A DNA stretch of 64,000 bases from Cenococcum geophilum 1.58 (lineage: Eukaryota > Ascomycota > Dothideomycetes > Gloniales > Gloniaceae). Below are positions 15,986 to 50,782 of the stretch, one piece after another. The notes under the pieces were generated by a model. That model made no database searches. It had not been told where the DNA came from and saw nothing but the letters and a program-made list of their open reading frames with translations. Both the position numbers and the translations under genes were made by a program. The first letter of the stretch is position 1. Every line of letters starts with the position of its first letter. Location of the stretch: contig KV748181.1 in the NCBI GenBank assembly GCA_001692895.1, positions 3,415,640 to 3,479,639 of the forward strand, in the 5' to 3' direction.

Positions 15986-16099
15986 GTTAGGAAATCAGTA
16001 CACAGCTAGCAGATCATTAGGAATACCGCCAATTAATAATTTAGAGCCTTTGTAAAGGGTATCCCCCTTATCTTAATTGCTTAATAAATAGCTCTATAT

Positions 16100-19200: not shown

Positions 19201-19355
19201 GTATAAGCACGACGTTGGGCGTATAAAGAAGAAATTGCTTTAGGTATAATAAGTAATAATATTAACTAAATTAATTAGACGGATATTATACCTCTAGTAA
19301 ATAACTTAGAGATATTTTAAATCTTTAAGAATGAAGATAAAAAGGAGGGAGATAG

Positions 19356-25713: not shown

Positions 25714-28700
25714 TCAGACTTCAGTATGGGCCGGTTCCCTCGCCTCTTTCAGTGACTTGGCCTTGTCAGATTGTCGTTTCCTCCAAAAACGAAGACAACC
25801 TGCCAATCCAGCGAGCACAATCACCCCGCCTAGAGATGCACCAATAGCAACTCCTACTACATTTGGCTTGCTTGACTGCTAACTTGGGAGAGAAGAGGCT
25901 GCCGAAGTGTTTGGCGGAGCGGTGGTTGTTGGAGTGGGTGTTAGAGTGGACACTTGATACGATCTTTGAAAGGCATAGAATAATGTACTGCCCAATTTCC
26001 CATTGGGCGGTCCCGAGACAGTTGCTCCTCTTTTGGCTCCGTTCGGAATATAATCAATTATGACTGACACCTAACGTCGTTCAGGCAGAAATGAGAGGGG
26101 ATGCTTACGTCCCACCTATTACTTGGATTACATCCGGAGGGTTTCACGTCCGAGAAGTCTAGAACAAACGGGCTCCAAGATGAGTTATCGGGAGTATCTT
26201 GTCTAAGATTGAGGTTGTGCCTCCTACGGATGGAGCGTGGTAATCCGAGGAGTTGGGGAAGGTCCCGCCTATGGTGATTATTTGCGTGCCATTGACAACA
26301 TCGCAAGAAAGTGAGTGATGTCCATACGACGGTACCGTAGTCTTGGGTACCATTTTATCCATACGAGCGCAGGAAGAGTTAGAATATAGACGTCGTCAAA
26401 TGCCATGGATCCGTTGATAGTGGCCGCTTCGGATCTCAGGTCACCGTAGATATATCTGTAAAGAAGCATGCATAGTGTAAATCATCAGAACATCTAACCA
26501 CACCTACATACTGAACGAATATTTATTATCGAGCCAAGCCACACCGCCACAAAATCTTGTCCTTGGCTCTAGAGCATCACCGGTGGCATTCTACTCATTC
26601 CGTGTGCTACTCCATATCATAGACCATAATACTCTGCTCGCTATTAGTAGCTGTCAAGAAGAGGGGTGCAGGTGCGCACGGAGTAGTATTACGTCCGTAG
26701 GAACCTAGGCGTGTCAGCGCTATGTCTACTAGGGTTCATCGGAGAGGCGTACGCCGGGGATTTGTCCGGTGCCACGATCTTGAGTAATCCCACCAAAGTA
26801 GGCCAGCAGGCTGGACCTTGATATTGGAATAAACACTATGAGGCCTTCGCCTCTCCCTTTATCATGAATTCCGGCGCTATTCGCATAGGTCCTGGAAATC
26901 GCGTCGAATGTGATGTGGTTTGACGAATACTAAGGTCCGCCAGCCGACCAGTTACCGGTCAGGTTATTTTGAAACCCTCCGAGATAGTACGGAGGTGCGT
27001 TTCAAAAGTCTTTGCCGCCAAGAAAATTGACCGCTTTGGCTCACCGCCTTCCAAATCTAGATATCCTCCCATTTGTCCTCTGCCGCTTTAGGTGCTTTTA
27101 AGCGTCTTGGTACCTCTATAGCACCCTCCCTATACTCGTTACCTCCTTCAAGCTTAATAACCTTCTTAATATGCCTAATAATCCGCTCAATCTAAGCCTA
27201 AATCCTCCACTGCTCAAGATCTCTCCATGCCACCTACCATACCTTCTTGCAACCTCCCTCTTCTGCGGCGCTCCCTTACACGTAGTAACCCTCTTTATAT
27301 ACGGCCAGCAAGGCTTAATTATATTTAAATTAGGAGAGTTGCTATACTAAAGAAGGCGTTAGATATTCTATACGTTATATACAGTTAATTAATATTAGTA
27401 GGCGTAAGCTAGAGCCTTATCTTCCTAGACAATAGTACTAGGCCTCTCCTTAAGGCACTCTTAAGTAAAAGGTAATAGCTTTAGTATAAGAATTGATGTT
27501 TAATATTGCTACTAATTAATACCTCCATGGCCCTGATTCCGTACGAGCTTACTAGTTGCTTTAGTAAACTTCTATTCTAGCTTTAGTCTAGGAAGATTAC
27601 GCAGTCCTATCTATCTAATGCCTATATTAAGCTCCTACTCCTCCCGTATATAAGGCTTAAGCTCTTTATTTAGCTTATTAATTACAGCCTAAGCTTTCTT
27701 CCGCTCTATAGTTGTCTCTAGCTGCTAAATATAGTAAGGTCCTTTCTTATTATATAAAAAACAGCCCCAAAACATAAACTCTAAGTAGCCTTTTTAGTGG
27801 GGGTGTATACAGCTCTTAATAAAACGCTTATCTATAGCACGCCAAATTTAATATCCACCGCGGCAATAATTTAAGACAATAGATGTCTTATTTAACCAGA
27901 TAATATTCTTCCAATCTTCTAACTTCTAATAAGCGTAATCTATATAGAACTTATACCTCTTAAGCTTTATCTTCTTCGTTAATCTAGGCTTAGTGTGGCC
28001 AACAGGCAGCGTCGCTAGTAGCGTCGCTAGCAGCTAGCTGCTTATATAAGTAGTTAGTCAGCGTATATAGTTATAACAGTTAGTTAGTGGTAAGACTGCA
28101 GCGAGCTGATAGCTCGCTGCATAGGTGGTAAGAAAGGATGGTATTTTAAAGCTTTTAGTAGAGGTTAAAGATCTAAGGGTTTTCGGCTAAAATTCGGGCG
28201 GGAAACCCCTGGGATATTTATATAAAATAGTATAGTTTTCTCTAAATTCCCCGTCGCGTATATACACGCGTTTATATTAACCTTTTTATTACTACGGAAA
28301 ATGTAATATACTTTACATTTTGCTAGCCAGCCAACTAGTAGAGCTTCTTCCTCTACTCCTTCCTTATTAAGTTTATAATCTACACGTTAATTAAGCTCTT
28401 TAGCATCCCATAGGCGTTGCAGATTTACTGCTTCTACTCCCCTCGCAATTAAAGACACGCCCAAATTAAATAAGTAGAATAACTCTATATTACGAAATCC
28501 TTCATTAATTGGCTAGAACTATAGCTATATCTTTTCTATTAACTAGGATAATCTTTACCTAGGTAAGCACGGTAAGCTTACTAGTAAATACGGATACTAA
28601 ATTATTAATAAGCGGTCCCTTTTAAAGAACTCCGTTATATTAATAATATGGAAGTATAGAGCAGATCTATTTTAGGACGGGCTAGAGGGTAGGAAGAGAC

Positions 28701-29803
28701 TTTAGTTATATAAAATCTGCTATCTAGCTTAAAGACTAGCTATATTACTTATAATTAACGGCACGGATTATATTGTTGGCCATTTAAAATTAAAATATAG
28801 TCTTATTCTTAATTATAATAGCCATAGTAATACTCTATAAGCACTATCCGAACTAAACGCTTAAGTCTCTCCTATACCCAGTAGCAGCAAACGCCAGCTA
28901 TTTTAGGCAGCTGGCTATATACAAGCCTATATTAATTAGACGATCCTATAGGATATTATATTTTAGCAAGCTATAAATACTTATACCCGCGCATTACTTA
29001 TATTTAACCATCCTTAGATATAAGAGTGTCTTGTACGTTCGTATATATTACTAAGTAACTAGATAAAATCTGCCTTTGAGCGCCAACGCCTTAATATTAA
29101 AGACCTCCTCCTTACCTTACAAAGTAAAATCTATATCAGCTGTAATATCTAGACGTTAATAAATGGAATGTTACTACTTAGTATAGTAGCTTACTTAGTT
29201 AATAAAGATAGCAAGTTACAATTAATCCTTATAGGACTTCCGCGGATATAAGGATTGTATATAGCTGAGAATATAGCAACAGCTTTAGCAACGGTTATTT
29301 AGAAGTATTAATTTAAATATAAGCTTAGCTATCTAATAGCTAATAACGCCACTAATAATAACGAGCTCTACAAATACCTCTTGTAAAGCCTTATAGTAGC
29401 AAAAAGGGAACAACTCTGGTATGTTGGCTATATTATAAACCTCGTCGTTAAGGCCTTACTATATAGTAAAGGTATTAGCAAGCTTAAACGCTTGCTAATT
29501 AGTGCTAGCAATTAAGCTAAATTTGACCTTATATAGCAGAAAGGTGTTGTTAGAAAAGTTTATAATATTGTTAAATATATTATGCGATCTATGGCTTACC
29601 GCTAGGACTTTACTAAGAATTAAGCTAAGGCTTATATAGAGGATAAGCTCTTTAATTAAGCCAAACTTATACTTATTAAAGACGGTAGCGTTCGGTAGAA
29701 TTCTACCTACTTTATACTTTAACGGGCGCTACTTCTTAAAAAAGGGATTAATAAATATCTGCTAACTTAGAGGAAGCCTACTAATAATAGCTACAACCTT
29801 ACG

Positions 29804-29990
29804 TGTCACGGCACTGACCTGACACGTTGTTATGATTCAGTGTTGTTATGACACGAGCACGGACCTGACCCCTGAGCGACGTGTATATAGATCGCCTCAC
29901 CTCCTACATGGATCCTCACACGACATTGTTTGTCAATCATATACAGTCACCTCGTACATCGTACCTTGACAGTCCGCACGTACTGTGACA
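29804..29990 (+). mobile_element. Solo LTR (187 bp) inside the hAT
   Basis: Starts TGTCACGGCAC and ends CTGTGACA, with the perfect 5-bp duplication TTACG on both sides (29799-29803, 29991-29995). It keeps GC-rich sequence while the hAT around it is RIP-mutated, so it is probably younger. The first 20 bases match the LTR head of Element 1 at 18 positions and the length is equal, so it likely belongs to a related gypsy family. Orientation is taken from that match. Confidence 0.87.
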
Positions 29991-30881
29991 TTACGCAAGA
30001 CTTTCTTACTAAAGAAGATTAGGCGGAAGTTAAGCAGCTTATTAAAATCCTAAAGCCTTTTATATTAGCTACTAAACGTATAAAAGGTGATGCTAATAGC
30101 TATAGCGTTAAGGGCTTATATAGAGCTTTATGGGAGTTAATTATAAATATAGAGCTTCTTCGCCAGATTCTTATATAAACTTAGTAGAATCTTAAGAATA
30201 CAGACGACTGCTTTCTTAAATCTAGCGTTAATATGGCTCTATAAAAGCTTAATAAGTATTTTAATAAAATAAAAGCTAAGAGCCCGTACTACTTTATTAC
30301 AGTTATTCTTTATTCCTCTCTTAAACGCGCCTACTTTCGCAATAAGTGGAAACGGTGGCCACAGTGGTGGAAGTATGCTAAGAGGTGTATAGAAATAGTA
30401 TTTGATAACTATATTAATAAGTAAGTAGGCGAGGAAGATAAGAAGGTAGTTAAACTATAATGCAGGAAGGTTTCTTATATATCTAGCAATAATTTAGGCG
30501 ATAAATATTTATAATCTCTACTAGTTAATAAGAATCTTACTTCTTTACACTTGCAGAAGCGAATTAAGCTTATTACTAAACTTAATTATTACTACAACGT
30601 AGGCCTTAAGCTAATTAAGATCCGTAATAAAAACAGCAGTAAAGTAAGCAACGTCGTTTTAGATCCTCTTAACTGGTGGCTTACTACTAGTTAAATCCTT
30701 TATTTAACTCTCGCTAAGATTGCTCTAAATCTATTCTCTATACTAGTAATAAGCTCTATATGTAAGTGAGCTTTTAGCTAAGCTAAGAAGATTATTACAA
30801 ATAAGCGCAATAGGCTTTTAGCCGATACAGTTAAAGCAGACCAATGTTAAAAATGGTGGCTACTTAAAGGCCGTTTACTAA

Positions 30882-31008
30882 TGTCAGGTGACGAAGTCAC
30901 CTCGCCTATATGTATTGTTCCGCACAGCCGTGTCTGGCATCAAGCCAGTCACTTGCTTACCTTTTGCGGGTTTGTGTGGCTGAGTGGTGCGGAGCTTATC
31001 ACCTCACA
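30882..31008. mobile_element. 127-bp TG..CA element with 5-bp duplication (mini solo LTR or MITE)
   Basis: Ends TGTCAGGTGA and TCACCTCACA are inverted repeats (9 of 10) and are flanked by ACTAA on both sides (30877-30881, 31009-31013). GC-rich and non-coding; it contains the palindrome AGGTGACGAAGTCACCT. TG..CA plus a 5-bp duplication suggests a very short LTR of a TRIM-type element. A MITE cannot be excluded. Confidence 0.65.
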
Positions 31009-31108
31009 ACTAAGCAGCTTAATTAACTGCATTAACTCTAACGGAGCCTTAGCTACGCCCTAGTTAACGAGTTTAAAAACCGATCTTACTGGCTACAGGT
31101 TAGATATA

Positions 31109-31557
31109 CAGTGATGTGCACGACCAGCTTCCACCCCCCCTCTGAAAAAAAATATTATTTCGCTTCGGTACGCGGGCTCGCTAGCAATCGTAGCGAACGC
31201 CCATGCTTGGCTGCAAGAACTTTACTTCTGGCAGACTTCGCGATCGGCCTTCCTCCGCAGTGTCGTGATCTTTGTTAAATATCGTGAGGTCCCCACCAGT
31301 ACGATATCACCAAATTTCATCGGCAACTGCAGGAACAGCTTTGTATTCGCGTTTTGGCGGCCACAGCGGGGGGGGCGCAGTTAAGGGGGAGGGGAGGGCG
31401 CGTGCGTCCTCAGCTTGGTTCTCCTGGCCAACCAAGGCGATTCTCCAGGGCAACCAAAAAGGTCCTTGCGTGCAGGCACATGCGTTCGCTACAGTTACTA
31501 TGTACAGTTGGTGGCGATTTAGCGAGCCCGGGTGGAAGCTGGTCGTGCACATCACTG
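31109..31557. mobile_element. 449-bp foldback MITE inside the hAT
   Basis: Terminal inverted repeats of about 26 bp start CAGTGATGTGCACGACCAGC and are flanked by TA (31107-31108, 31558-31559). Interior segments are also inverted (CGGGCTCGCTA near 31174, AGCGAGCCCG near 31521; GTAGCGAACGC with GCGTTCGCTAC), so most of it can fold back. No RIP signature. TA duplication and the CAGTG start fit Tc1/mariner. An open frame across 31272-31652 is not considered a gene. Confidence 0.8.
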
Positions 31558-33110
31558 TAGTAGTAGAAACACCAGATAAGAGAGGTACGTTTACTAGAGC
31601 TCTCTACCTAATAGAATCTAACTTTAAAATAGAGCTTATAGAGCCTACTTAACCACCTAACCCAAGTTCCTACCACTAACGTCACTACGAACTTCTTTAA
31701 AGCCTACGCGGCGTGGCGATATCTGAATACTATACAAGGTTAATTGAGGTAGATTTGATATCGGGCAATATCAATATTTGTATATACAGAAGTGCTGTCA
31801 AAAATCTAAATTTTGGCTCTATAACTCCATTAAATCTATACAAATTACCCAATTTAGATAAGCGCGCTGTCAGCGGTGCAGTCAGCGTACACATTTACCC
31901 AGCAAGCGGACAGCGAGCGGTTCAATTGGTACAGTCAGTCAGCGAAGCTCGCTGGACGCTGACTGTTGGCCACACTGTCCAGGCTTTTGTGTAGGCTTAA
32001 TCTTCCTTAATTTAGAGGCTCTGAGTATTCGCTATATAGTTAGAGCACTAACTTCTCTAACCTCTGCAGCAATATAAGCGTATGTCTTTTCTCTACTATA
32101 TCTATCACAACGGACCTTCTCCAGTATTAAGTTCTTAGTATCTTTAGTTTGTTTAGATGGACGGCTAGGGTAAGGAGCATCGTCTACGTGGGTATTAAGG
32201 ACGAGAGGAGAAGACCTTGGATTAAAGCCTTAATCGATTTCACGGCGATATATGTCTCGTATAGTTCGTTTAGAAATTTGTGTTATCTTTATAATTTCGG
32301 CAGCTGAGATTCCATAAGCTCTAAGAGCCATAATTTAAGCTCTTGTAGCTGAATCGTAGCCCCCTACAGAACGTTTAGCAGTAGATCTTTTAGTAGCCAT
32401 TTGGAATATTAAAAGAGACTTAAGAGCTGCGGAATTGGGCTGGTAGGGGAACACTTGGTAGGACACTTGGTGACGTGGCAGGATCCTGGTGGCAGGATTC
32501 TGCCGGCAGAATCTTGGTTTTCTGCCTTGGCGGTAAGCGGTCAATTTTCTTGGCGGCAAAGACTTTTGAAACGCACCTCCGTAACCGACTCCGCTGTCTT
32601 GTGCCACAGCTGACATGCCATACGCTAAGTACTCTGGCTGTCCTTTGGTTTCAACGACGTTCTATAGGCCGCGGACAGTATTGTAAGACTAGGTGACAAA
32701 ATTCGTTGGCTCTTTATCGGTAAAATAGCCACCAGATGCGTAGAAGACTTTATTGACTGTGTCGGCCCAGAGCGTGCCACCAGGTACAGACGAATTTTTC
32801 GTTAGGCCTGAATACAGGAGATCATGATCTAGGTTGATATTAGTACTGGGCAGCCTGCGATCGAAATCTTCTAGGCAGTTGTCTTAATTTGTGTGATTCA
32901 GAAGGTTTTGCGAAAGTGGATTCCAATTTATATATTCACCGTCGATGCAAAGGCGATTGTCAATGACTGCTGTGCGATGACCAAAGCGGCGACAGAAATC
33001 TATGATATGAGGGCTCGGCGTGAAAAGTAGGCTCCGGCAAAAACACAGTTCAATAGGTTCGACCTCAGGAATAAATGTATTTTAGTCTTGCGGCAGATAT
33101 TTAGCGATCC

Positions 33111-33799: not shown

Positions 33800-33941
33800 G
33801 ATCTATATACTAGAATGCCATCACGTGATCGCAGGAAACTCTACAGCACCTCCTTATCTCAGGTGCCTCAGCCGCTTCTCCAAGAAATTTGCGGCGTTGC
33901 ATGGCCCCACTCTCTTGCCACAGCCCCACTCTGCCAACTCG

Positions 33942-34535
33942 TGCGAACTCCTGAGCCAATCAGCGGCGCGCACTAACTCCTGCGAACTCCTAAGCCAATA
34001 GAACGTCGCGCTACTCCCTACCCCCCCTACAACCCCCAAATTCCTCTACAAAGCGTCTAAGAGATTATAGGCGCGCGTTTGCTATAAACCGGGCCCGATC
34101 CTTAACGCGTGTTAACTTTAAGCAACTATAATAGGGTTAATCTAGCAGCTACGGTTATAGTTTGCGATGCAATTAAATTATAATATCCTCTATTAGTATA
34201 TTCTAGTGAATTTAACTAGCTAACTAACGTATTAGGGGTTAAAGTACAGCCTTAAAGTTTAAAGACGCGTTTTTAAACCTGGTCCTGCCCAACCAGCCTT
34301 ATTAATATAGCAACCGTACTCCACTACCACAACTTTATTTACTATTAAACTTTATAAGGCGCCTCTTATACCCTATTAAAAACAGCTCGCCTAATTACAC
34401 TACACCTATATAATATTTATAGCGCGTTATTGGCTAGGTACGCTCTTTTAGAGACTCCTACAAACTCCTATAAACTCCTAGGCTAATTAGATAAGCTCCT
34501 ACGAACTTCTATAAACTCCTAGGCCAATTAGATGG
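33942..34535 (+). repeat. Left subterminal repeats (CTCCTGAGCCAATCAGCGGC)
   Basis: Copies of a motif RAACTCCTRRGCCAATNAG, often doubled with an upstream AACTCCTRCGAACTCCT, occur at about 33942-33966, 33975-34000, 34452-34490 and 34491-34532. All are in forward orientation. The same motif occurs in reverse orientation in the rest of the element. Confidence 0.8.
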
Positions 34536-34789
34536 CGAGATTTAGAAGGAAAAAGAAGATAGGTAGTAGGAATATAGATCGCCGGAGTTAATGGCATAGA
34601 GCTTAGGGTAGGGCAGTAGAGCCGCCTACAGTATAGACGTTAGCTAATCGTGGTTCTATCCCAAAGACTCTCTAGTTAATTTAGAGACTAAGCGTAAAAG
34701 AATTACCGTTGGTTATCTAGTAGGTAGGGCATATGGAGAATATACCGTTCCAGCACAAGGTTATTAACCTCTACCTTTAGCGAATTATG

Positions 34790-37389
34790 CTTTAGACCTG
34801 CCCATAGCTTAATAACTTTAAGCCACGCGACGAGCAGGTGCGCACTCTGCGTCGGCTTATATTTAGGAAAGGTAACACTCTTCTTATTGCCCGTACGGGC
34901 TTTAGTAAAAGCCTAATCTTCCACACATATTCTGTCCTTACGGGGAAGATTACTATTTAGATAATCCCGTTAAATAAACTAGGCGACGAGCAGCTGGATA
35001 ATATTAAGAAGATAGATAGCTCTTATCTAGTTCTTATTAACGCTAAGATAAGAAGTTAAGAGAAGTCTCTAATTATAAAGATCTAGGAGGGGGCGTATAC
35101 GTATATACTTCTTAGACCTAAGTAGGCGTTAACAAAGTTATTCTAGGATGCCTTAAAGGAGCCAGAGTTATAGTCTCGGATTAGGCTAATTGCAATTAAT
35201 AAATATTATCTTATAAAGGAATAGGAAGGCTTTTAACCGGCCTATTTAATGCTAGGTAAGCTGCGGATAATCCTCCGCCTAAGTATAGTCTGGTTTACCT
35301 ATTCTACGACTCTTAATAAGAAGGCAGAGAAACTAGTCCTATCGCGCGCTAGGTTCTAAGCAGTTGGCCATCGTCTATACTAGACTAAGGTTATAAAAAC
35401 ATCTATTAATTATCTGGATGTATCTATATATATACAACCAACTCCTAAAGGAAAGGTAGACTTATAGGAAAACCTATACTTTCTATTAGATAACTATATA
35501 AACGGCGACGAAGTACCTATACCTAAATAGATACTAAAGACGATAGTCTTTATTAATGGTTGAACATCTATTCAGTAGGCAGTAGAGTACCTCTAAAATA
35601 TACTACTTTAAAAGTCTAAGGCGTATATAAAAGGGACTAATAATAATAATAAGGCCTTTTATATTAGTAGCGTAATCTAGGAGTTTACCGCTACTATATA
35701 AGAGTATAATTATAACTAGCAGTATACAGAGTTTAAGAAGCCCTTCTTTATTATCCGAATTATAATAGCTATAACCTTACTTGGTATAGGCGTAAATGTT
35801 ATAAATATTAAGCGTATAATTATTTAAAGGTTTCTAATTATAAATAGCTTAGGCGATATATGGTAGTAAATTAGTTAAGGCGGATAAGGGAAGAATCGTA
35901 CTAGTATAGGTTATATCTTCCTACCGTACTGGGCATTTAATATAGAGGGGGTAGATAAGCTAGAACGGAAACTACTACTACCGTTATATATAGAGCCGCC
36001 AACCTAGGCGCCTTAGAGAGGATATAATAGCTTACCTGCCAGATATAGACGGAGTAAACTTATTTAGAGTACTACACCTAGCAATATTAGCGATGCAGAG
36101 AGTATTACCTTAGAGAAATTAGCCGTAAGTCACAATTCTGCACCTGCGGCTAATGGTAACCTTTTATTTTAGATAAAGGCTAAGATAGCTAGTTATAAGA
36201 AGCTATTGGCTAAATAGAAGGATATAGTAAACGGTAAATATTATTAAAAGGCCTTCCTTACCTTTCTAGGAGAGGATAGGTTACTACTAGTAGTCTTAAA
36301 CCATGTTGTTCACGCGCTAGCTAATTAGTGCTGTAATTAATACAACCCTTTACTATTTCCTAAGTTTACGTCGGCCCCTAAAGTACTAGCACTACTTTAT
36401 TAGCTAAGGGCTAGCACCCAGCCTAATATTGCATTGGGATTTATTAATAATTGGGCTGTTAAGCAGGCAGAGTTAATATACGCTAGTAAATATCGACGCT
36501 TCCTTATACTATCGTCTGCATTTATAGAAGAGAAGTATTACTAGTAGCTTACGCATCTATATAATAGGAAAACGCCTAATACCTTCTAGGAGACACTTAT
36601 AATAGATTCCCTAGAAAGTATAGCTCCTCTACTTATCTTATAGCGATATCGCGATACCTATAGCGATTAGTTAATTAAGCAACTAAAGAGTATAGTTAAG
36701 GCAGTTAGGAGTACCTATAAGAATAATCTGGCGCAAAGACGGGCAAAAGATGCTTAGGGTAGGGCCTTAGTAGTGCGCGAGTTGCTAGAGCAGCCGTCTA
36801 TACTGGCGGAGTATACTACGCATATTTGGCGACGGGATGATAGCCTTGCCGTCTAGGTTGCTATACGGGAGGCAGTACGGAGCGTAGTAGACTTGCCAGC
36901 TTCGCTACTTAGAAGTTAGGTTACTAGTAGGATTAGCGCGCCGGGCTCTTTACCTAGTACTTTACTTCTAGCTATACTAGAGGGTATTAAACGCGCGGCG
37001 TAGGTACTTAAGGATGTTTAGAGACTAATCTCTACGCCTATAACGCATAGTACGTCCACTATAGGCTCTTAAAATGTCGCTGCTCCTAACGCTTAGGATG
37101 CTATAGTTCTTAACTCCCAGAATACGGCCAGTCTTAATTCTTAAGTTATCGCTATTCTTAATTCTTAGCCTACCGTTCTAGCTATATCCTAGTTACAGGT
37201 GGTTTTAACGCCTAGCCGGAAAAGATAAGCTAGTAACTAAAGGGACTCGCCTGCTAAACGTTAGATAGTTATATAGAAGAGGGATATAAATATAGATATA
37301 GTACTTATATTTACTCCAAAAACTAAATCTAGGCGTATTAGAAAAGCAATACTAAGAGGTAAAGAGAATTTCCTTATAGAATTGTAGAT
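34790..37389 (+). pseudogene. RecQ-like ATP-dependent DNA helicase, RIP-degraded
   Basis: A plus-strand coding remnant of roughly 850 codons with many stops from RIP. Readable landmarks: FKPRDEQVRTLRRLIF (about 34817), a Walker A block LLIARTGFSKSLIFHTY (about 34875-34925), KITIxIIPLNKLGDEQLD (about 34955-35010), the DExH region in mutated form (IAINKYYLI, about 35187), WFTYSTTLNKKAE (about 35290), KTIVFING, and a motif V/VI region near 35770-35900 (VNVINIKR, SLGDIW, GGxGKNRTS). The order matches SF2 RecQ-type helicases. The C-terminal third (36.1-37.4 kb) has no recognised domain. Start not determined. It resembles helicases of fungal repeats more than housekeeping RecQ, but I cannot test this. 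Confidence 0.72.
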
Positions 37390-37417
37390 AGAGATAGCTT
37401 AGGGTTTTATATAATGG

Positions 37418-37665
37418 CGCGTTTTAATTAGTCTAGGAGTTAGCAGGAGTTAGTAGGAGTTGGCAGGAGTTAGTAGGAGTTGGCAGGAGTTAGTAGGAGT
37501 TGGCAGGAGTTAGTAGGAGTTAGTAGAAGTTTACGTAGTAGATTTTATATAGAATCTTACCTATTAACCTATAACCTTTACTTAAAATATTATAACGTGT
37601 TTTAATTAGCCTAGGAATTTATAGGAGTCTTTTAATTAGTTTAGGAGTTTACAGAAGTCTTTAGA
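37418..37665 (-). repeat. 10-bp tandem array (GAGTTAGYAG/GAGTTGGCAG) and internal motif copies
   Basis: About nine copies of GAGTTAGTAG alternating with GAGTTGGCAG (20-bp higher period) lie at roughly 37436-37530. Around them (37418-37440 and 37592-37660) are reverse-orientation copies of the subterminal motif (ATTAGTCTAGGAG, ATTAGCCTAGGAA). The array looks like an expansion of the motif's AGGAGTT part. Confidence 0.8.
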
Positions 37666-37739
37666 AGTTTTGCGCTAGTAACTTAATTAATAATATAAGG
37701 TAAATAAGTGTTAGATTGCGGTGAATATTTATAAAGGTA

Positions 37740-38741
37740 AAGTAGATAAGCTAGTACTTACAATTATCTACGCCCCCTATTTCTCTTTATAACACCAACA
37801 CTAATAATAACTCCCCCTGCGGCCTAGGTACTTTCGCACCCAGTAAACTTTCCAATTAGTAAGAAAGCTATTCTCGCCGCTACCTCCACGCTCCATCCCG
37901 GAGCCCTACATTTAGGTTATATCTGGCGTCCTCTATAGGTATTTTCCTTACTAAGTAGTTAATTAAAGCTTTAGTAAATTAAACCTAAGCTTCTAACTAC
38001 TTCCCTACTTAGAGAGGCTATTTACTAACCAATTCTATAGCCCTCCTTGCCCTTACCGCGCTCGCGCTCCCCCTATCCCCGTCCCTATCCCCTATCCCTC
38101 TCCTATACTACCTCTTAGCAGCGATAATAATAATAATAATAATAACGGTGTTAGCTAGTGGCCTAATCTACCATACATTTTGCAATGCCTTATGTCTTAA
38201 ACGTTAGCTAATATGGTATATAGATCACCATCACTATTACCTTTACCTCCTCCTCTACCACTACTACTACTACTACCACTACCACCACCACCACTGCTGC
38301 CCGCGGCCCCGCCGCTACCCCTTGCTTAGGCTGGCTTCGCGGCCACCTAGTAAGTAGACTAATAGCGGCTCTTATAGAACTGGGCCCTCTATAGAAAGGC
38401 TACTATTAACTACATGCCTATAGTTACGGGTAAATAGTGGTTAGACCTTCTGGCGTTAGTAGGCGCCAAGAATACCTCTTATATTAGGAGGATTCTAGAG
38501 ACGGAGCTAGGTAAGCAGCTTATAAAAAAGGATTAGTGCTTAGCTTGCTAAGTAAGGGATAAGGAGTGCTAGGCCTACTCTAGAAAGGGTTCCTAGTAGG
38601 TAAGTAGGCCTAGTAACGCCTGTGCTTACTATTATATAGCAGCCCACTCTAGCGAGTGCAGTCTATTAAAGTGGCGTAAGTCTTAGAGAGGCTTACGGTC
38701 GCCGCCTCCTCCCCCTTAGTTTCTTTTTCTAAAGGGGCCGC
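37740..38741 (+). pseudogene. Zn2Cys6-like cysteine-rich protein remnant, interrupted by Element 5
   Basis: A plus-strand coding remnant continuing on the far side of Element 5 (46670 to about 46930). It begins in Pro/Ser-rich low complexity containing an (AAT)n tract near 38126-38145 and an (ACC/ACT)n tract near 38243-38293. After this comes LLALVGAKNTSYIRRILETE (about 38450-38510). Then a cysteine set follows: CLAC, six residues later C, and about 18 residues further a second set C-x2-(mutated C)-x8-C (38545-38665). The spacing resembles a fungal binuclear zinc cluster, so DNA binding is plausible but inferred. A proline run spans the insertion point. RIP-degraded; start and end uncertain. 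Confidence 0.5.
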
Positions 38742-39167
38742 TGTAACGGAACCTTATAGTAAGGACTACGATGGGCTCGTTATTGGGCTAGGTGTGTAGG
38801 AAATGCAGGTATAAAAGTCAACAACGAAATAATAACTAGTGGAGTGGTTGCCTAATAGATTAACTCTAATTATATTCTAAGAATTACTATAAAAAAGGAA
38901 CTATCTAGGTAGGGATTAAGGGTCCTTAAATACACAACCGTACTCCTATAAAATCCTTCTTATATATAATATACGTATACTCTATCTACTCTATTATGGA
39001 TTACGTAGATTACGCAGATTATATAGATCACCCTATGTGACCTTAGTTACTATTCCTCGTTATATAGTTCTACTAGTTCCATCCTAGACTATACCTAAAT
39101 TAACTAACTAGCTTCTTTTAACTCCTCTTCTAGTAGTTATAATATCGTACTTAAAGCGTCCGTAATA
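38742..39167 (-). repeat. 3' LTR of Element 5
   Basis: 426 bp, beginning TGTAACGGAACC and ending GCGTCCGTAATA on the plus strand. Partner of 46239-46664. Confidence 0.92.
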
Positions 39168-42100
39168 CTATCTCCCTCCTCTTTATCTTTGTCCTTAAAG
39201 ATTTAAAATATCTCTAAGTTGTTTACTAGAGGTGTAATATTTATCTAATTAATTTAGTTAATATTATTACTTATTATACTTAAAGTAATTTCTTCTTCTT
39301 CGACCGCTCGTCGTGTTCGCACTATTACTACAATATTATCTCTTAGTGAGATTATACTATCTCTATGTTCTCGCTGTTCGAAAGAGGGGTTAGTTTATAT
39401 TGCGCTGGCGAACCTATCTTTGTGATAACCGTTCTCTTGCTTAAAGTGCACTAAAGCGAATATTTGTTCGTCTTATAATATTTACTCCATCTCTAATGCT
39501 AAATATATATAACCTATTACTCTTAATAGTCGTCTAGTTCCCTAATTAATTTATCTTAGGGTCTTATATTTAATCTGCTGCTATATAGCTAGATAATAAA
39601 CTATCTATTACTTTGGCGGAACTGCGCCGTTCTTATAATGTAGAATAGGAGGCTGCCGATACTTAGCAACGGGCTCTTAAGTCTTATCTTATGGCGTCCG
39701 CTTGGTTAATCCATCTTAAAAAGGTGCGTAAAAAGGTGCGTTTTAAGGAGTGGAAACTTATAGAATAAGGTTTATAGGAACTTAGTAATAAAAGAATAGA
39801 TTCTTTTTTAATAGAGAAGGAAATAGATCTGAGTAGTTTGGCAACTACTCCTTTTAGGTCCCCTTTAGGTGACTTATTTTTTAATGCTTCCTAACCTAAT
39901 TTCTTCTGATACTCCTATACCTTTCTTATAGCATTCTTTAAATTTTCTAGTAGCTCCTAAGTAGTCTTAGTGTAGCCTATTTACTTAACCTCGTATTATA
40001 TTTTATCGTTAACGCCCTTATAACTAACGATCTTTAAAACTTACTATTTATCTTCTTTTTGTCCTTTATATGTGTCTACTTTATAAACTAGTGGCTTAAT
40101 ATTTCCGTGTGCTAGCTCTAGTATTGTAATATACTATATAGGGTAGATCTTTATCTTAGCTAGTAAGTTTAACTTAAATATAATTAGTAAAATCCTTTAC
40201 GTAATTTTAAAAGGTCCTAGTCTAATATGGTCTAACTTCTTACTTAGTCGTTAACTCTTAAAATTTTTATATAGTAGCTATACTTTATCTCCCTCCTTAA
40301 GATCTAGTCCCTTAGATCTCCTAGCATTATAGTACCTTTTTATTCTCTTTTATACTTTCTTTACTAATTCTATAAGGTCTATATAAAGATTTATTAATAT
40401 CTTTATTCTTTCTTTAGCTGTGCTACTCGTTTTCTTTACTTGCCGTAGTAATAACAATATTCTTAGCTTATATCTATAATTTGCCTTAAATAGTAATATG
40501 CCTATTCCTTCTTAAGGTGTTATATTATATATAAACTGTGTAATTAGTAATAGCGATACCTAATTATTCTGTGTATAATTAATATAATATCTTAGATACT
40601 GCTCTAGTGTTTAATTTAATCTTTCTGTTTAACTGTTTGTCTATAGATAATACGCAGTAAAAGTTGCTGCTCGAACTCCTTATTCCGCTAAAAATACCTC
40701 TTAGAATGCTGCTATAAATCTTAAATCTCTATCTAATATAATCTTACTTAGTACTTTATATCTTATAAATACTTCCTTAATATAGATTCTAGCGATATCT
40801 TCCGCTAAGATTTCTTCCGTATATGTTATAAAGTATCCCTACTTTATAAGCTTGTCTATTATTACTAAAATTGCGTTATAATCTTATCCGGTAATAGGAT
40901 CTCTTAATTTTAGTAACTTAATAATAAAGTCCTATAATATAACCTCCTATAGTCTCTCTAGTATTTTAATAGGTTGTAGCCCTCTATATAGCTTATGCCT
41001 TATTAGTTTATTCCTTTAGTAATTTAGACACTCTTTAGTGACCCTTCTAGCTATCTTTTAGATTTTGTTAATAATATACTCCTTTTAGAGTCTTAACACT
41101 AAGCCTATAGCTCTATTATGCCCTTAAGTTAATTCTTTATGGAATTCTTCTATAAATTGCTCCGCTATGCTTCTTAGGATATACTTTACTTTTTGATTTT
41201 TGTATATATCTATTTATAAATCTTCTAGTTGTACTTTTAGAATTCTTTATACCCAAAAGCTTTCTAGTGTCTTGTAAACCCTATCTAGTTCTTCTTAAGT
41301 TGCTGCGATCTTTAGATAATTATACCTAATTAATCCGTCTGTGTCTTTTCGCAGTAAAGCCCCTAATGGCTTTTTATTGTTCTATAGTTTAGCCTTATAA
41401 CTTAGAGCATCTGCCCTTATATTATCTGTACCCTTAATATACTAAATCTTAAAATAGTATTCTATAAGTATCTCTGCCTATCTAACCTATCTTTAGTTAA
41501 GTTCCTTTGTCGTTAGAAATCCTATTAGGTTCTTATAATTTATCTTAATTATAAATAGTTTTTCTATACCTTATAAGAATGCTCTTTATTTCTTTAGTAC
41601 TGTAACTATACCTAATAACTCCTTGTTGTAAATGTTATAGTTTAACTCTAGTAGTATTATCTTCTAACTATAGTATACCACTAGGTGCTATCTATTTTAA
41701 TATTTCTATATAAAGCATGCCCCTAGTATATAGTCTAATATATCTATTTCTATAACCGTCTCTAGACCTGGTTAATAGATTTTAAGAACTAGCTCCTGGG
41801 TAAACAACTCCTTAACTTTCTTAAAGAGTTCTCTTTATTCCTCTCCCTATGCCTATAGTTCTTCTTTCTTTATTAATTATGTAAACGGCTTAATATTCTT
41901 TAACTATTACGCTATAAACCTTCTATAGTAATTATAAAACCCTAGAAACGATCTTAACTACATAATATTCTCTAGTTCTTGCCAATTCACTATAGCCTTA
42001 ATCTTCTTTAGATCTATACTAAGTTGGCCTAGTTTAATAATAAATTTAATAAAATTGGTCTTCCTGGTAAAGAACTTATATTTCTTAATTACTACTAGCA

Positions 42101-45100
42101 TCTATTTTTTTTATAGTCTCCTTAAGACCTATTTAATATATTCCCCGTATTCTTCCTTAGTTATTAAGTAGATAATAATATCGTTAAGATATACTATAAT
42201 AAATTTATCTAAGTGTTCTCCTAATATATTGTTAATACGCTTTTAGAACGTTACTAGTGCGTTTATAAGCCTGAATTGTATAACTAATGGTTTATATAGT
42301 CCTTCCTTTAACCTAAAGGCTGCCTTTTATTTTTGCCTTCCTTAATCCTAATCTAATAGTACGCCTATCTTAGATCTATCTTTATAAAGATTTGCGCGTT
42401 GCCTATTCTATTTTAGATTTTGCTAATTAAGGGTAAAGGATACTTATCCTTTCTAGTAATGCTGTCTAACTGCCTATAGTTAATATACAGCCTTAGTTTG
42501 CTATTCTTCTTTAGTACAAACAGTACTAGATAACCCGCTAATAACTGCGATAGTCTAATATATCCCTTTTATAGATTTTCCTAGACAAACTCTTTTAGTA
42601 CTCTACCTTCCTCTTCGGTAAGCTTATAGATTAGAAAGAACTTTAGACTTATCTCTAGTTCTAATTCTATTTTATAGTCCTATACTATATACTTTAACAG
42701 CTTTTTACTTTTCGGTAACTATAGTTTTTTGCCGTACTTATAGTATCTCTTTAGTACGTAACTTAGTCCTTTTTCTGTTTCTTTATAGGTTGCTCCTACT
42801 TAGTACTATACCAACTTAGCTTATTATCGCATCTTGCGGCGTTAAGTATCCCTAATATTGACTTAACCTATAATTTAATCGATCCTTAGATTGTATTCCT
42901 ATAACTAAGGCATGCTTAATACTGCTTTGTCCCGTCCTAATAGTAGGATATTAAAAGATATCTTAATTTATCTCCCTTTAATAGTTATCTAAATAGGTCC
43001 TGTTTTAAGATTAATAATACTTCCTCTATAGGCTATTAGATCTCCTAAAATTGTAATTAATAGGTAAAATTACTCCTTCTGTCTATGCGGTAGCCCTATT
43101 CTTTTAACTGCTGCTAGTAAAATATAGTTTCTTATTACTCTACTATCTATTAGCGCTTTAAACTGCTAATCTTACTATTTAACTTATAGATTTAGGTGTT
43201 GTCCTTAAATTTCTTTAAGGGTCTAAGGCTCTATTACTGGCTCCCTCTAGTCCTATAGGCCTCTACTTTTCCTAACTATTAGCTGCTTAATCCTTATATA
43301 CTTGGCTTACTCTTTAGCCAATACCTAGTTCGCTTCTTATCTTTAATATACTATAAATACGTGTTTTCTAGGTATTCCCACTACTATTATCCGTCTAAGC
43401 ATTCTTCTATAAGAAATTTTCCTAATTAAAGTACTAAGCTTTCTTCCTCTTAGACCTCTGCTAGATGCCATCTATATATATATTTAGCATTCCTATATTA
43501 TTGCTCGTCCATTATCCAATATATCCTTATAGGGTATTTCTAATTCTTTTCCTTTGGATTCTTATACATCTTATATATATCGTCTACGCACACAATCTAT
43601 AATAACGTGTGGTGTGCTAGGTGCTTTAGGTTAACTCTTAACTCGTTTTTATCTTTAAGTTTAAACCTCTGTTGTACTAATCTAAACGTTATAACTTTGT
43701 TCGCAGGTACTAAGATACGTCTCTTGCTTCTCTAGTCCTCTAATTATTCCTCTAGATCCTTTAACGTTATTATTAAGGCTCCTTTAATATGCGTTATAGC
43801 CTTCTCTATAATTAGGTGGTTTTAGATAACTTTTTTATCTAACCACATATAGAAATCTTCCCACTCGTTATTATGCCTTTACCTATACCACTTTTAGTAC
43901 AGCTGCTAGAGTATATACGGCTTATCTGTAAGGAAGTATCTTCTTATTACTGCGTTATGACAGCCCTTTATATATTGTTCTTTAAACCTAGTTAAGATCC
44001 CTAGATCCTCTTTGTTTTCCAGTTTAGTAAGCTACTTAGCTCTTAGTATGCCTGCCCTAGGCCTATTAGTAATTCTTTATACTAGTGCTTTATCCTTTAT
44101 ACGTCCTAATATGCTAGATCTCTTATCTAGTTTCTGTTCTTACTATGCGATAATTCTTTGCCTAAACTCTTCTATGGTTTCTTTTGGTTTATGTCTCGCG
44201 CTTAGATTCTTAAAGTTCTCTTACTTCTTAATCTTGGTATTAACTTTTTAATCTTTAGTCCGAATAATATATTCTACTAGTAAGTCTTCTAGGTCTATAT
44301 ATTCGTCTCCTAGTCTAATTACTATTTATGCCGCAGATTCTCTAATCTATAAAGAAGCTCCTTACCTCTTACTTATAGGTGTCCTTATTCGTTCTCCAAA
44401 TTCTTAACCCCTTTAGATTTTTGATCCTAAGCTTGCTTCTATCTTAAGCTTTACTCTAACCTTAGTTTAACTAGGCTTACTTAGTGTTTTTATCTTATCT
44501 TAAGAGTCTTATGCCTTTAGGAAACTTCGTCCTAAGCTTATTTATATATTACTGAACTAAGCTATTACTCTGCTCCATTAGTTATCGTCTATTATAGGTC
44601 CTTAAGCTTACCTTATCTTATCTTAAGAATCTTGGTCGTCTCGTATCTTACTATAAGAATCTTAAGCTTGTGGCCTTTTGCCTTTATTAAGTGCCAAAGT
44701 AGTTTACTATCCTACTTCTCTTGCGTCTTGCGAAGCGATAGACATCGTATTTAGTAGTGTCTTAATCCCCACTAATGTTCCCTATTCTATAGTGGAATTA
44801 TCCTTTGCCTCTATTATAATATCTCTAATAGCTACGTGTCCCTAGTAGACCACCTTTATTACCTTATTGTTACGAAATGCTTCGCCTATATTAAAATCAT
44901 CATCCTTAATATCCGATCTATAAGCTAGTTTATTAGTTCCTCTGCATTCTATAGGTGCTAGCTCCTATAGCTAATAGCTTACGCTATACTTAGCGTCCTT
45001 ATAAATTTAGCATACGTTATTATAACAAAACGCAAAACTTTTAATTAAACATTCTTTTGTTCCTTGCAGTACATTATCGTCCCTCTATACGTGTATATCG

Positions 45101-46238
45101 TCTACTAGTCTTATACCTTTTACTATATAGTAACTTTACCCACTTCTATAGTCTCTAATATAATAACCCTATTTTCCGCAATTTATATAAGCTCCTTTTT
45201 TAAACCATTTTTCTTGTTATGGAGTCCGCCTAAATGTCTTCTACTATTAAAATCCCTAATTTGGCCTCTGCTCCTTAGACCTCTAATTACTTAATTCTTA
45301 TCCTCTAGGTTTCTATAATGTCTTACTCTATCTCTTATAGGCTTCTTTAGTACCACTTAGGTCTATTAGCTCTGCGCTATACTATAGTTTCTAACTTAGC
45401 TTCTATTGTTACGTACTCTACGCCTTATACAACTATAGAACTCTATCCTAGCCTCTCTTAGCCTATTCCCTCTAGTAGATCTAATTATTAATCTTAATCG
45501 CCTAATCTATTAGTTCCCTTAGGGTGTCCGCATCTTCCATTAGGATAATTACATCCTAAACTTTAGCCTTAAGTCCCTGTTTATACTATGCCATAAGCGC
45601 CCTATTATTCCACTCTACTTATATCGCTAATATCTGGAACTACGTTATATACTTAATTGCTAAGGTTTATTACGTAATATCTTAGAGTTTTCTTTCTGCC
45701 GTGGTTACTGCCTCTAGGTCTCCAAATATTTATATAAGTCGTTCTATAAATCTATTCCAGCTTAAGAACATAAACCGTACCTCTTAGTTAGTGGTCGTTA
45801 TACCGTTTACTTATATCTCTATAAGGTAAAACTTAAACTATTTAAGTGCTCTTCCTATTAAGAATAGTCCTACATAGGCTATTTAATCTATAGGTATTGC
45901 CAGCTTTACTCCTTCCTGTACTACCTTAAAGTGCATTTATATAAGGAATCCTTTAAGCTTCGATCTCTCTCCTAAGTATCTTTTAATTGATAGTAACTTA
46001 ACCTTTACTGCGCCTATCCCGTTAATCCTATTTTCTAACATTATATTATTTTCTGTTAACTAGTTAACTATCTCTTATAATTATCCGACCGTTATAGGTT
46101 GCTGTAAGTTAGTGTCTGCTATACTAGTGTCGTTACCTAATCTTAAAGTAGTTGCTGCCGTCGATGGCGTTGTGGTGGCTGCTTTTAGTGGCATATTATT
46201 CGACTTCTTGTATTAATACTATAACTAGGTAGTGATTG

Positions 46239-46664
46239 TGTAACGGAACCTTATAGTAAGGACTACGATGGGCTCGTTATTAGGCTAGGTATATAGGAAA
46301 TATAAGTATAAAAGTCAACAACGAAATAATAACTAGTGGAGTGGTTGCCTAATAGATTAACTCTAATTATATTCTAAGAATTACTATAAGGAAGGAACTA
46401 TCTAGGTAGGGACTAAGGGTCCTTAAATACACAACCGTACTCCTATAAAATCCTTCTTGTATATAATATACGTGTGCTTTGTCTACTCTGTTACGGATTA
46501 CGCAGATCACGCAGATTATATAAATCACCCTACGTGACCTCGGTTACCATTCCTCGTCACATAGTTCTACCGGTTCCATCCTAGACCATACCTAAATTAA
46601 CTAACTAGCTTCTTCCGACTCCTCTCCTAGTAGTCGTAACATCGTACTTAAAGCGTCTGTAATA
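46239..46664 (-). repeat. 5' LTR of Element 5
   Basis: 426 bp, nearly identical to 38742-39167, followed by the second GCCGC duplication. Confidence 0.92.
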
Positions 46665-46946
46665 GCCGCCGCCGCCTCCTCCGGGAGCTAGGGGTTTAGG
46701 TATAACAGCGTAAGAAGGTATAGTATAGAATTAACGGCTATAGCAAAGACTGGTATCTTTTTATAGGTAAGCTTTAACCTTATTCCGGTTAGTTTAGATT
46801 CTATATAGGTAAAGAAGCTAGTATCCTAGGCGGGCCTAACCGTAAGTTATCCTTTATAGGTAACTGCAAGGCGTTATAAAAGCCCTTATTCTACTTCCTA
46901 TTTAGGTTTAGGTTAGAGGGGTATCTAGTATAAATAAATAAATAAA

Positions 46947-47078
46947 GTAAGTATAGCGGGCCTCTACTCTAGTATAGATAGGTAAAGAGAGTAAGTATAG
47001 CGGGCCTCTGCTCTAGTATAGGTGGATAGAGAGAGTAAGTATAGTGGGCCTTTGCTCTAGAGTAGTAGTATTAAAATA
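46947..47078. repeat. 44-bp tandem repeat, three copies
   Basis: GTAAGTATAGYGGGCCTYTR starts at 46947, 46991 and 47035, exactly 44 bp apart. Inside the helicase-bearing element, after the cysteine-rich remnant. Confidence 0.88.
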
Positions 47079-47154
47079 GAGGTTATTTTTATTCTGCCGC
47101 TTAAATATACTATAACTATTCCTACTCCCTTAAAGTGCATAAGCTTATAGCCTG

Positions 47155-47430
47155 GCGCGCGCTCTAATTAGTTTAGAAGTTTACAGCAGTTTGCTAGGAG
47201 ACCTTAGGGAATAATAATAATAGTAGGGAACTTAGCGCGCGTTCTAATTAGCCTAGGAGTTTGCAGTAGTTTGCTAGGAGACCTTAGGGAATAATAATAA
47301 TAGTAGGGAACTTAGCGCGCGTTCTAATTGGCCTAGGAGTTTGCAGCAGTTTACTAGGAGACCTTAGGGAATAACGGTAGTAAGGGGCTTAGCGCGCGCT
47401 CTAATTGGCCTAGGAGTTTATAGCAGTTTA
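47155..47430 (-). repeat. About 80-bp tandem repeat containing the subterminal motif
   Basis: Units start with GCGCGCGYTCTAATTRG at 47155, 47235, 47315 and 47392 (periods 80, 80, 77). Each contains a reverse-orientation subterminal motif (ATTGGCCTAGGAGTTTGCAG) followed by GCTAGGAGACCTTAGGGAAT. The last copy is partial. Confidence 0.88.
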
Positions 47431-47449
47431 GGTAATATCTAAGTAAGGA

Positions 47450-50268
47450 GCTTAAGAGACATCTAGCTCCTAGCCTATATTTTAGTTAGAGGTAAGATCT
47501 ACCTTATCTAACCCATCGCCGATAATATTGGTAAACTCTTATATATCCGTAAAGCTAGTTAGGTTATTAGTATCTAAAAGAGGATAGGAAGTAGTAGCCG
47601 AATGCGGGTCCCATATATAGAGCTAGTTAAACTACTTAATCCTCTCCACTAAAACGTCTATACCGGTACGGAGAATATTATAAGAGTTAAATAGCTATAA
47701 GCCTGCTAGCTGCCTAGGGCCTTATGGTATAGCTAGATTACTTAAATAGATTGTATAAGTAAGCAGGAACATATCGAGTTCCGTAAAAGCCCGCGTATAA
47801 GCACCTAATATCTCCTTACTAAATATATGCTCTATCTTACTATACACTATCCTAACCGTCGCGTTTAATAGACATACTTAGTTAAATATAATATTAGTAT
47901 TATAGGTAGAGTTCTTATAACACTTTATCTTAATTTTATAGCTGCTGTTTAGGTGCTCTAGTCTAAAATTAATAGCCTTATATATATTAAGAGACCTAAG
48001 CTAGTTTATAACCCCTAAAGCTAGTATTACATACTAGAGTTTAGGCAAATTTACCGAAGTAAGATTCCACCAATAGAACAGCATCTCGCGGCCGTAATTA
48101 TGCTATAACGCGCCAAAGAAGTAGATAATAAGGGGGTTAATAAGCCGTTGTAGTATACCTATATCGGCATATTTAACGGCATGCCGAATAATAAGAAGTA
48201 GCTCGGCTTCTTAAAGTAGGCGACACATTATCTAAAACTTAATATCGCCATACACGTGCCTACTTAAGTCTACGCCGCTCTATACTTTAATAGTAAAAGT
48301 AATAAACTAAATATCCTTAACTATTTCTAGGAACCGCTCTGGTATAAGGCAACCGATCGCCTAAGTGACATTCTCTATACATTCCAACAATAACGGATTA
48401 GATAGGTCGGACAGTTTAGGTATTATAGTAAAAAGACCTTGGCGCTATATAGCCGTATAGAAGAGGGCTATTATACGCGCTATAAAGCCCTACTTAACAA
48501 TTAGTACCACTTAATAGTACTTAGCGTTCTCCTGTATAAATAGTACACGATTTTATAGAGTAATGTTAAATCTTAGATAATAGTACGCCTCCTCTTAATA
48601 GTCCTTAGGCGCTAAATGCGTGCGTATAATAGTGTTATATAGGTTTATCTTAATATAGAACCACGAAGGTATACTAAGGAGCCAGTCCTAATAGTTAAAA
48701 GGACAACCCGCGTAGGCCTATTCCTATTTTACCGACCTAATATAATACGCAGTAAGCTGGTCACTATAGGCAAGCTAAAGCCGATTAGTAAAGTCGTTAT
48801 ATATAGAGCTATAGGGGTTATCCGGAGCCTAAAGTCTAAGCTAGTTAAGGAAGATATTTTTATAGACGCTATATATACCCTAGATAGTACCCTTATCTTC
48901 TATTATAGCACTAAACTACTAAAACTTAGTCTTCCTGGTGTTAATATAGTGTATACTTAGCATTTAAGGGAAAAGATCACTTTTAGCAAAGACGCGCTCC
49001 ACCCTATATAGATAAACCCCCTTTATTACGTTAGTAATAAGGTAATAGCTAATCTTTACTATTAACTCGTCTCTAATAAAGCTAGGTAATCGAAAGATAT
49101 TATTAAGTTACAGCGGTTTTATTAAATTATATATTAATTGGCGTAGCCTAGATAAAGGTAATTCTGGATAGAATATAATAGCAGCGGTTGTTAGCGAACG
49201 CATAATAGACGTATAACTAAGCAATTCATCGTGTTTTATATCCTTAAAGTTTACATTATTATATATAACCACTGTTTATGGGTTATACGCTAGGGTCTTA
49301 AGATGCCTCTATAAATATTAGCCCCTAAAGGAGTCCGTAGAAGCCCTTTTAATTAACCTAGGAGTTTATAGAAGTTTATAGGAGCTCTTCTAATTAGCCT
49401 AGGAGTTTATAGAAGTTTGTAGGAGATAGATACAAAATAATTAATATACCTCTGCCTCCTTAGCAATACTATTTATAATACAATTTACTAAATAGTAGCT
49501 ATAATATAGCCTAAAGCCAGATAGCGTTTTAAACACCCTCCTTTTTACCCTAGAGCCTATAAGATAGATATCTATAAGCAAAGTAAAGAAATTTAACCAC
49601 TTCTTAGCTCTAGAAGAATAGATTATACTAGTAATAGCATACGCCCGCCTAACTAAAGTGTCTTAACTCTTCGCCTTCTAATCTTTTACTTTCTAACCTC
49701 CCGCTTTCTAACCTCCCGCCTTCTAACCTTTTATCTTCTAACCTCCCGCCTAATAACTTGCTTTATAGGCGCGCTGGTTACTAAGAAGCTATAGCAAAGT
49801 TATATACTATATTAGGGCAATATCTTACATAGTGCGGAAGGCGACTTTAAAGTCTAGGTCCTCTATATTTAACGTCCTATTAAACGTATTAAAGTATAGC
49901 TCCTAAATAAGGCGGTCTAGCTCTATAGTAAAAGACCCTACTAGTATAACTGCCCCTCGAATATAGCTAAGTTACGGATTTTTCGCAACTGTATCTAATA
50001 ATACTCGCCATTGTCTTTTAACGCGACCGTACCAACAGTGCCTAATTATAACCCCCCCATTATCTGTATCGTCTGCTCTAACCTAGGTAGATAGGAATAA
50101 TGCAAAGGTCCAACCCTCTCGTTTTAGGGTATTAACCACAGCTTATAACTTCTTTGCGCGCCTCCGCTGTCTTATGCTTTAGTTTAATAAGGGAGGTTTA
50201 GGCTTACTAGTATCGGGTCAGCTGTTGTTATCTATCTAGTCGTCGCTATTAGAGGAATCCTTAGACAT
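47450..50268 (-). pseudogene. DUF6589-like protein, RIP-degraded
   Basis: A minus-strand coding remnant of about 900 codons. A start is possible at 50268 (MSKDSSNSDD). Near the N-terminus come REGWTFALFLS and a WYGRVKRQWRVLLDTVAKNP block. Near 48.0-48.25 kb it reads MCRLL, EAELLLIIRHAVKYADIG, FFGAL, HNYGREMLFYWWNL and SVNLPKL. The HNYGRE-type block with a Trp/Asn-rich follow-up is what I recall of the fungal DUF6589 family, whose function is unknown. Many stops from RIP. It is the largest protein of the element after the helicase, so it may be its transposase or a replication partner; that is inference only. Confidence 0.62.
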
Positions 50269-50735
50269 ATTAATGAAGTATTCTAGCGGGCTAGAAAGAC
50301 TAAACTGGCTAGAGTAGCTAGATAGAGGACTCTAAGTATCCTGCTCGGATGGACGCCTATTAGGGGTACGGTCGGGCTCTATTACAGATGCAATATATAA
50401 AGTAAGAGATAAGCTTTTAAATAGAGGTATTGGCGAGCTAAGCAGCGCTATATTAGGGGTTAATATATAACGTTAAAGGCGATCGAACTGTTATCTATTA
50501 GTAAGGCTGTACAGCCCTTATAAAAGGCGCCCATAATCCCTTAGACCCTTAGAGAGGAATCCACCTTGGCGCTCTATAATTGGCTGCTAAAGCTAGCATA
50601 AGCGCTAACGCTTGTGGCGTACATTAGGCTGCGGCGCCGGCCGCTAATTGGCTCAGGAGTTTATAGGAATCATAGGGGTTACAGAGGTGTGGCGGTGCCA
50701 GCCGCTGATTGGCCCAGGAGTTTGCAGGAGGTGAG
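49343..50735 (-). repeat. Right subterminal and internal motif copies (reverse orientation)
   Basis: ATTGGCYYAGGAGTTTRYAG-type copies at about 49345-49365, 49385-49425, 50643-50665 and 50700-50730, all reverse relative to the left end. Those at 50.64-50.73 kb are the least mutated (GCTGATTGGCCCAGGAG). Confidence 0.8.
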
Positions 50736-50782
50736 GTGGATTTTCTCTCCGAGGGTCTGAGTCAACTGAGATAAGCACCTCC

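Follow-up and report, generated by a model that had tools for sequence, protein, structure and literature searches.

DNA transposons that carry a helicase and end in terminal inverted repeats (TIRs) have been described in fungi under the names AcademH and KolobokH (PMC9587614, PMC10045372, PMC10799480). AcademH encodes a helicase, generates target-site duplications (TSDs) of 9 or 10 bp (PMC10045372) and occurs at low copy number in Ascomycota, Basidiomycota and Mucoromycota (PMC10799480). KolobokH, listed as known only from fungi, carries a gene for a RecQ helicase (PMC9587614); one report describes telomere-side copies of ~10.5 kb in which two genes are RecQ-like and one is uncharacterised (PMC10989895). 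Here we analyse a 64-kb stretch of DNA from Cenococcum geophilum 1.58 (64,000 nucleotides of contig KV748181.1; hereafter the window), in which an element at 33854-50774 carries a RecQ-like helicase frame and a frame for a protein of the Pfam family DUF6589. We read it as an 8,993-bp TIR DNA transposon, inactivated by repeat-induced point mutation (RIP) and split by a retrotransposon, that is most likely a member or close relative of AcademH, with DUF6589 as an Academ-type transposase core that Pfam does not label. We put the probability of this reading as a whole at about 0.58.

Ends, target duplication and internal motif

The segment, 16,921 bp long, is bounded by inverted ends with direct repeats flush against them, as is characteristic of a TIR DNA transposon. 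The sequence TTATCTCAG at 33854-33862 recurs as its reverse complement at 50766-50774, the terminal 20 bp match at 17 positions, and GCACCTCC abuts both ends exactly; the inverted ends and the flush octamer claimed in the initial annotation are therefore both real. Between them lies a Ty3/gypsy-like long terminal repeat (LTR) retrotransposon of 7.9 kb with its own 5-bp duplication (GCCGC at 38737-38741 and 46665-46669). Subtracting the retrotransposon and one GCCGC leaves a host element of 8,993 bp, so that the size of 9 kb first proposed is right once the nested insertion is removed.

The direct repeat can be read in three ways. Drawn most symmetrically, the ends leave an exact TSD of 8 bp. 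An A precedes the left octamer (33845) and is also the last base inside the right end, which gives a perfect 9-bp repeat, AGCACCTCC, as an alternative; with TATCTCAG taken as the TIR at both ends, which counts in the terminal T at 33854, the repeat grows to 10 bp and has a single T/C mismatch. From one copy alone the length could be 8, 9 or 10 bp. These readings overlap the 9-10 bp of AcademH, which, like this element, is a fungal helicase-encoding DNA transposon. KolobokH is also a fungal DNA transposon with a RecQ helicase, but Kolobok elements make 4-bp TTAA duplications and end in 5'-RR...YY-3' (PMC9587614), whereas here the duplication is GCACCTCC and the termini are TT...AA. Because both duplication and termini differ, a Kolobok transposon with a RecQ helicase is a most improbable identity for this locus, and AcademH, whose duplication the 8-bp, perfect 9-bp or one-mismatch 10-bp readings approach, fits better.

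How often would such ends arise by chance? We scanned for flush 8-bp repeats combined with a TIR that was perfect over 9 bp and matched at 17 of 20 positions, at a spacing of 1-30 kb. Three hits were obtained in 100 composition-matched Markov-simulated windows, so that TIR and TSD by themselves, with a chance of ~0.03, are suggestive, not overwhelming. The real window gave 13 hits, this element included; the 12 others lie without exception in paired inverted repeats of the LTR-retrotransposon region, and 11 of them have palindromic 'TSDs'. The octamer GCACCTCC is itself over-represented, occurring nine times in the window where shuffles give 0.89, two of the nine being the TIR ends of a neighbouring mariner-type transposon (26990/32581). 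We considered whether GCACCTCC is a mere leftover of such a mariner-type end, which has the same terminal octamer, and dropped the idea because the bases around the octamer differ.

The decisive evidence within the window for a single unit is a 15-bp motif, AACTCCTRRGCYAAT. Allowing one mismatch, it occurs 14 times in 64 kb, and all 14 copies lie inside the element (33946-50722); with two mismatches allowed the figure is 15 of 15. At one mismatch there is no copy in the nested retrotransposon and none in the remaining ~47 kb of the window, while 50 simulated windows held 0-2 copies each. Since the motif was derived from these repeats the count is descriptive; its confinement to the two sides of the retrotransposon, on both of which it is present, was not built in. 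The copies form small arrays at both ends of the element and between the coding frames; the four to the left of the helicase are on the plus strand and the other 10 are all on the minus strand. Because this shared motif, the TIRs and the flush duplication tie the two halves together, the proposal of one mobile unit of ~9 kb holding both genes is supported.

The same motif bears on a reading in which a subtelomeric segment with a telomere-linked RecQ helicase (TLH) lies beside an unrelated DUF6589 gene and the end repeats are accidental. RecQ-like helicases do recur in fungal subtelomeres (PMC4522978, PMC5576322), and TLH genes and this locus share a RecQ-like helicase in AT-rich repeated DNA. 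Here, however, the helicase sits within a TIR/TSD unit, the window holds no pair of TTAGGG repeats at one mismatch, Pfam scans of the element's frames gave no DUF3505 match, and the right flank carries ordinary genes (an ENTH-domain protein and a Cys/Met-metabolism enzyme, as well as part of a polyketide synthase). Together with the 15-bp motif common to both halves, this makes the reading highly improbable.

Helicase and DUF6589 frames

Two convergent frames, both broken by RIP, remain in the host element: a helicase frame on the plus strand and a DUF6589 frame on the minus strand. Translated with stops as X, the helicase frame hits TIGR00614 of the RecQ family at E = 8e-10 (E = 7e-12 for 34751-36100 with TAA/TAG read as Q). 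The score of 38 bits lies below the NCBIfam full-length cut-off of 219.8; phmmer retrieved WRN, RecQ5 and RecQ1. The helicase remnant reported earlier is thus borne out, and the element, like AcademH, encodes a helicase. Pfam reported no helicase family for the whole frame, and in a shorter piece the DEAD family reached 17 bits against a cut-off of 26 (E = 0.005). The profile match covers the RecQ-type first helicase domain; a second-domain motif was read by eye only, and no profile matched the second domain, the zinc-binding region or RQC.

For DUF6589 (PF20231) the match is much clearer (E = 3e-32, 112.3 bits against a cut-off of 27, profile positions 47-395 of 410), which confirms the second remnant of the initial annotation. 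It is the sole Pfam family above cut-off in the six frames of the 9-kb host element; rows for Sporozoite_P67, MyTH4 and DUF6480 (E 0.05-0.9) were ignored. Motif copies at 49352-49407 break this frame, separating its N-terminal part (49430-50268) from the domain, and may mark an intron or a boundary between two genes. The third remnant, described as 'Zn2Cys6-like', was not supported: the six frames gave no zinc-cluster Pfam hit, in a search of limited power on RIP-broken frames, and what is there is a Cys-containing stretch at 38537-38662. NCBIfam gave no hits for that stretch or for DUF6589, and PHROGs none for the helicase and DUF6589 proteins.

Both frames are interrupted as expected from RIP, with 55 stops in 864 helicase codons (counted from 34829) and 54 in 926 DUF6589 codons, nearly all TAA/TAG. 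All frames here are poor in TGA, and one antisense frame of the helicase region has no more stops (54 in 863); the coding call therefore rests on the profile matches and not on stop counts. Structure prediction of the helicase core without an alignment gave a mean predicted local distance difference test score (pLDDT) of 36.0.

Assignment of the element and the role of DUF6589

The transposase is plausibly DUF6589: no other candidate protein is left in the element, and the pairing of a helicase with a transposase is known from such elements; by analogy with AcademH, it is probably of Academ type. The motif arrays would then be putative binding sites for it, comparable with the subterminal repeats of hAT transposons (PMC4763223). 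The DUF6589 protein may bind these arrays and the TIRs, excise the element and join it to a target cut with an 8-10 bp stagger, and the helicase may unwind or clear DNA at the ends or in the gap, aiding end processing or gap filling. The Ty3/gypsy-like retrotransposon would have split the element later.

Several observations weigh against assigning the element to AcademH with DUF6589 as its transposase. What points to DUF6589 as the transposase is its location within the element together with analogy, and AcademH was compared by its helicase and duplication length as given in papers that cite it. The symmetrical parse gives 8 bp, shorter than the 9-10 bp of AcademH. No solved structure matched DUF6589 at E up to 5, and its structure prediction without an alignment gave a mean pLDDT of 32.8. 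Stop counts do not set the helicase frame apart, one antisense frame having about as many. The six frames yielded no further transposase domain, a weak negative because the same whole-frame Pfam scans missed the helicase. Finally, tblastn of the helicase and DUF6589 frames found no second copy within the window. Acidic positions near the start of the DUF6589 domain and within an SDQLT segment, which we suspect to be conserved, were read from a single RIP-damaged copy and given no weight.

The length of the duplication also enters into a second explanation, an undescribed superfamily in which a DUF6589 transposase unrelated to Academ makes 8-bp duplications and a RecQ-like helicase was gained independently. 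An exact 8-bp TSD by the symmetrical parse, as against the 9-10 bp reported for AcademH (PMC10045372), fits this idea, as does the want of any other transposase family in the six frames, and searches for DUF6589 and its accessions found no relevant paper (subscription journals, Repbase and preprints being outside their scope). Against it, a helicase, a duplication of ~9-10 bp and a fungal host already make up AcademH, and one copy cannot settle the TSD; we consider it doubtful. Slightly more doubtful still is the fuller proposal that DUF6589 founds a new superfamily of eukaryotic DNA transposases, which would make 8-bp duplications, read 15-bp motif arrays at the ends and between the genes, and work with its own RecQ-like helicase, perhaps replicatively.

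The initial annotation had also held that the transposition machinery is 'not any standard transposase'. This stands in so far as the (weak) scans found no other transposase domain, but helicase-carrying TIR transposons have been described in fungi, and machinery outside any known kind is not supported. The element is best taken as a useful clue to DUF6589 and not as a new kind of transposon.

Could the element instead belong to the hAT or KDZ (Zisupton-type) transposons, as a non-autonomous or cargo-bearing copy that is mobilised in trans and in which helicase and DUF6589 are passengers? hAT transposons have 8-bp TSDs, TIRs and subterminal repeats (PMC4763223), Zisupton TSDs are 8 bp (PMC12730594), and the neighbouring stretch ~30659-30862 encodes a hAT dimerisation domain. 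On the other hand, this element carries a RecQ-like helicase, and no hAT or KDZ domain was found in its six frames (stops as X), although Pfam may overlook domains in RIP-broken frames: a search of this type detected the hAT domain in the neighbouring remnant yet missed the helicase in the element. The KDZ negative had no positive control, and we assume that Pfam holds a KDZ model. Exact matches to TTATCTCAGNTG in the window are confined to the element's own two ends; of 14 further sites at two mismatches, just two (29131 and 30879) are near the hAT remnant. We regard such a passenger arrangement as unlikely.

Wider searches, made in viral and prokaryotic collections, say nothing about fungi for that reason. 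The TIR pattern occurred in 74 stretches of viral contigs, most likely by chance, and tblastn of the DUF6589 frame against these stretches and a lambda piece gave no hit. Scans with the DUF6589 frame gave two pattern matches and no relatives among viral contigs, 44 and again no relatives among genome contigs, and the subterminal motif had no copies in the viral collection. PF20231 gave no hit in any of 14 control genomes, which is uninformative.

Should DUF6589 prove to be the transposase of helicase-carrying transposons, a Pfam family so far uncharacterised would gain a testable function, and DUF6589 genes would be recognisable as mobile elements instead of host genes. With its ends, duplication and motif arrays, the element would also serve as a worked case for why a transposon keeps a RecQ-type helicase, a question already posed for AcademH and KolobokH.

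Feature coordinates, nested retrotransposon and neighbourhood

Table 1. Features of the helicase- and DUF6589-bearing element, in window coordinates.
Feature	Position	Strand	Basis
Left TSD GCACCTCC	33846..33853	+	sequence match; 9 bp with A at 33845
Left TIR TTATCTCAGGTGCCTCAGCC	33854..33873	+	17/20 to right end
Four motif copies AACTCCTRRGCYAAT	33946, 33985, 34473, 34514 (span 33946..34528)	+	motif scan
RecQ-like helicase frame, RIP-broken	34808..37420	+	RecQ profile match in 34808-35275
Three motif copies, one mismatch each, and 10/20-bp tandem array (37434-37531)	37427..37649	-	motif/tandem scan
Cys-containing stretch, probably the 'Zn2Cys6-like' remnant of the initial annotation	38537..38662	+	translation; no family match
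Nested Ty3/gypsy-like LTR retrotransposon, not counted in the host element	38742..46664	-	LTRs, domains, 5-bp duplication
44-bp tandem repeat, 3.1 copies	46924..47060	.	tandem-repeat scan
Three motif copies in 80-bp tandem repeat (47155-47429)	47247..47418	-	motif/tandem scan
DUF6589 protein frame, RIP-broken	47486..50268	-	PF20231 match at 47839-48987
Two motif copies between N-terminal part and DUF6589 domain (possible intron or spacer)	49352..49407	-	
Two motif copies, right subterminal region	50647..50722	-	motif scan
Right TIR	50755..50774	-	17/20 to left end
Right TSD GCACCTCC	50775..50782	+	sequence match

The two LTRs of the nested retrotransposon (38742-39167 and 46239-46664) are 91.5% identical and differ by 36 transitions, no transversions and one 1-base gap. 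Two RT-RNase H matches exceed the Pfam cut-off; reverse transcriptase, integrase zinc-binding and Tf2-type SH3 matches fall below it. In AT-rich parts of the window the TA/AT ratio is mostly 1.4-2.2, RIP-type composition begins ~100-200 bp inside both ends of the host element, and the window as a whole looks like RIP-mutated DNA of a filamentous ascomycete.

Elsewhere in the window, several overlapping inverted copies of the same retrotransposon, at ~81-90% identity, occupy 7449-20557. A 12-bp minisatellite (13654-15188, ~125 copies of AAGCTCTGCACG, followed by arrays of 27- and 14-bp units as far as 15976) sits inside one of these copies, whose matches end at 13449 and restart at 16389. The mariner-type unit (26990-32581) is 5.6 kb long, is flanked by TA and has 47-bp perfect inverted ends (CGGAGGTGCGTTTC...); these contain the octamer (GGAGGTGC/GCACCTCC) that also forms the duplication flanking the 9-kb element, an apparent coincidence. 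Inside this unit, in RIP-affected DNA, lies the hAT dimerisation domain (PF05699, E = 8e-10; 30659-30862). A MITE-like insert of 449 bp at 31109-31557 is likewise TA-flanked and has 28-bp inverted ends, CAGTGATGTGCACGACCAGCTTCCACCC. The stretches 30324-30872 and 63365-63908 form an inverted pair of ~70% identity; the latter, at the right end of the window, may be another remnant of the hAT-bearing repeat.

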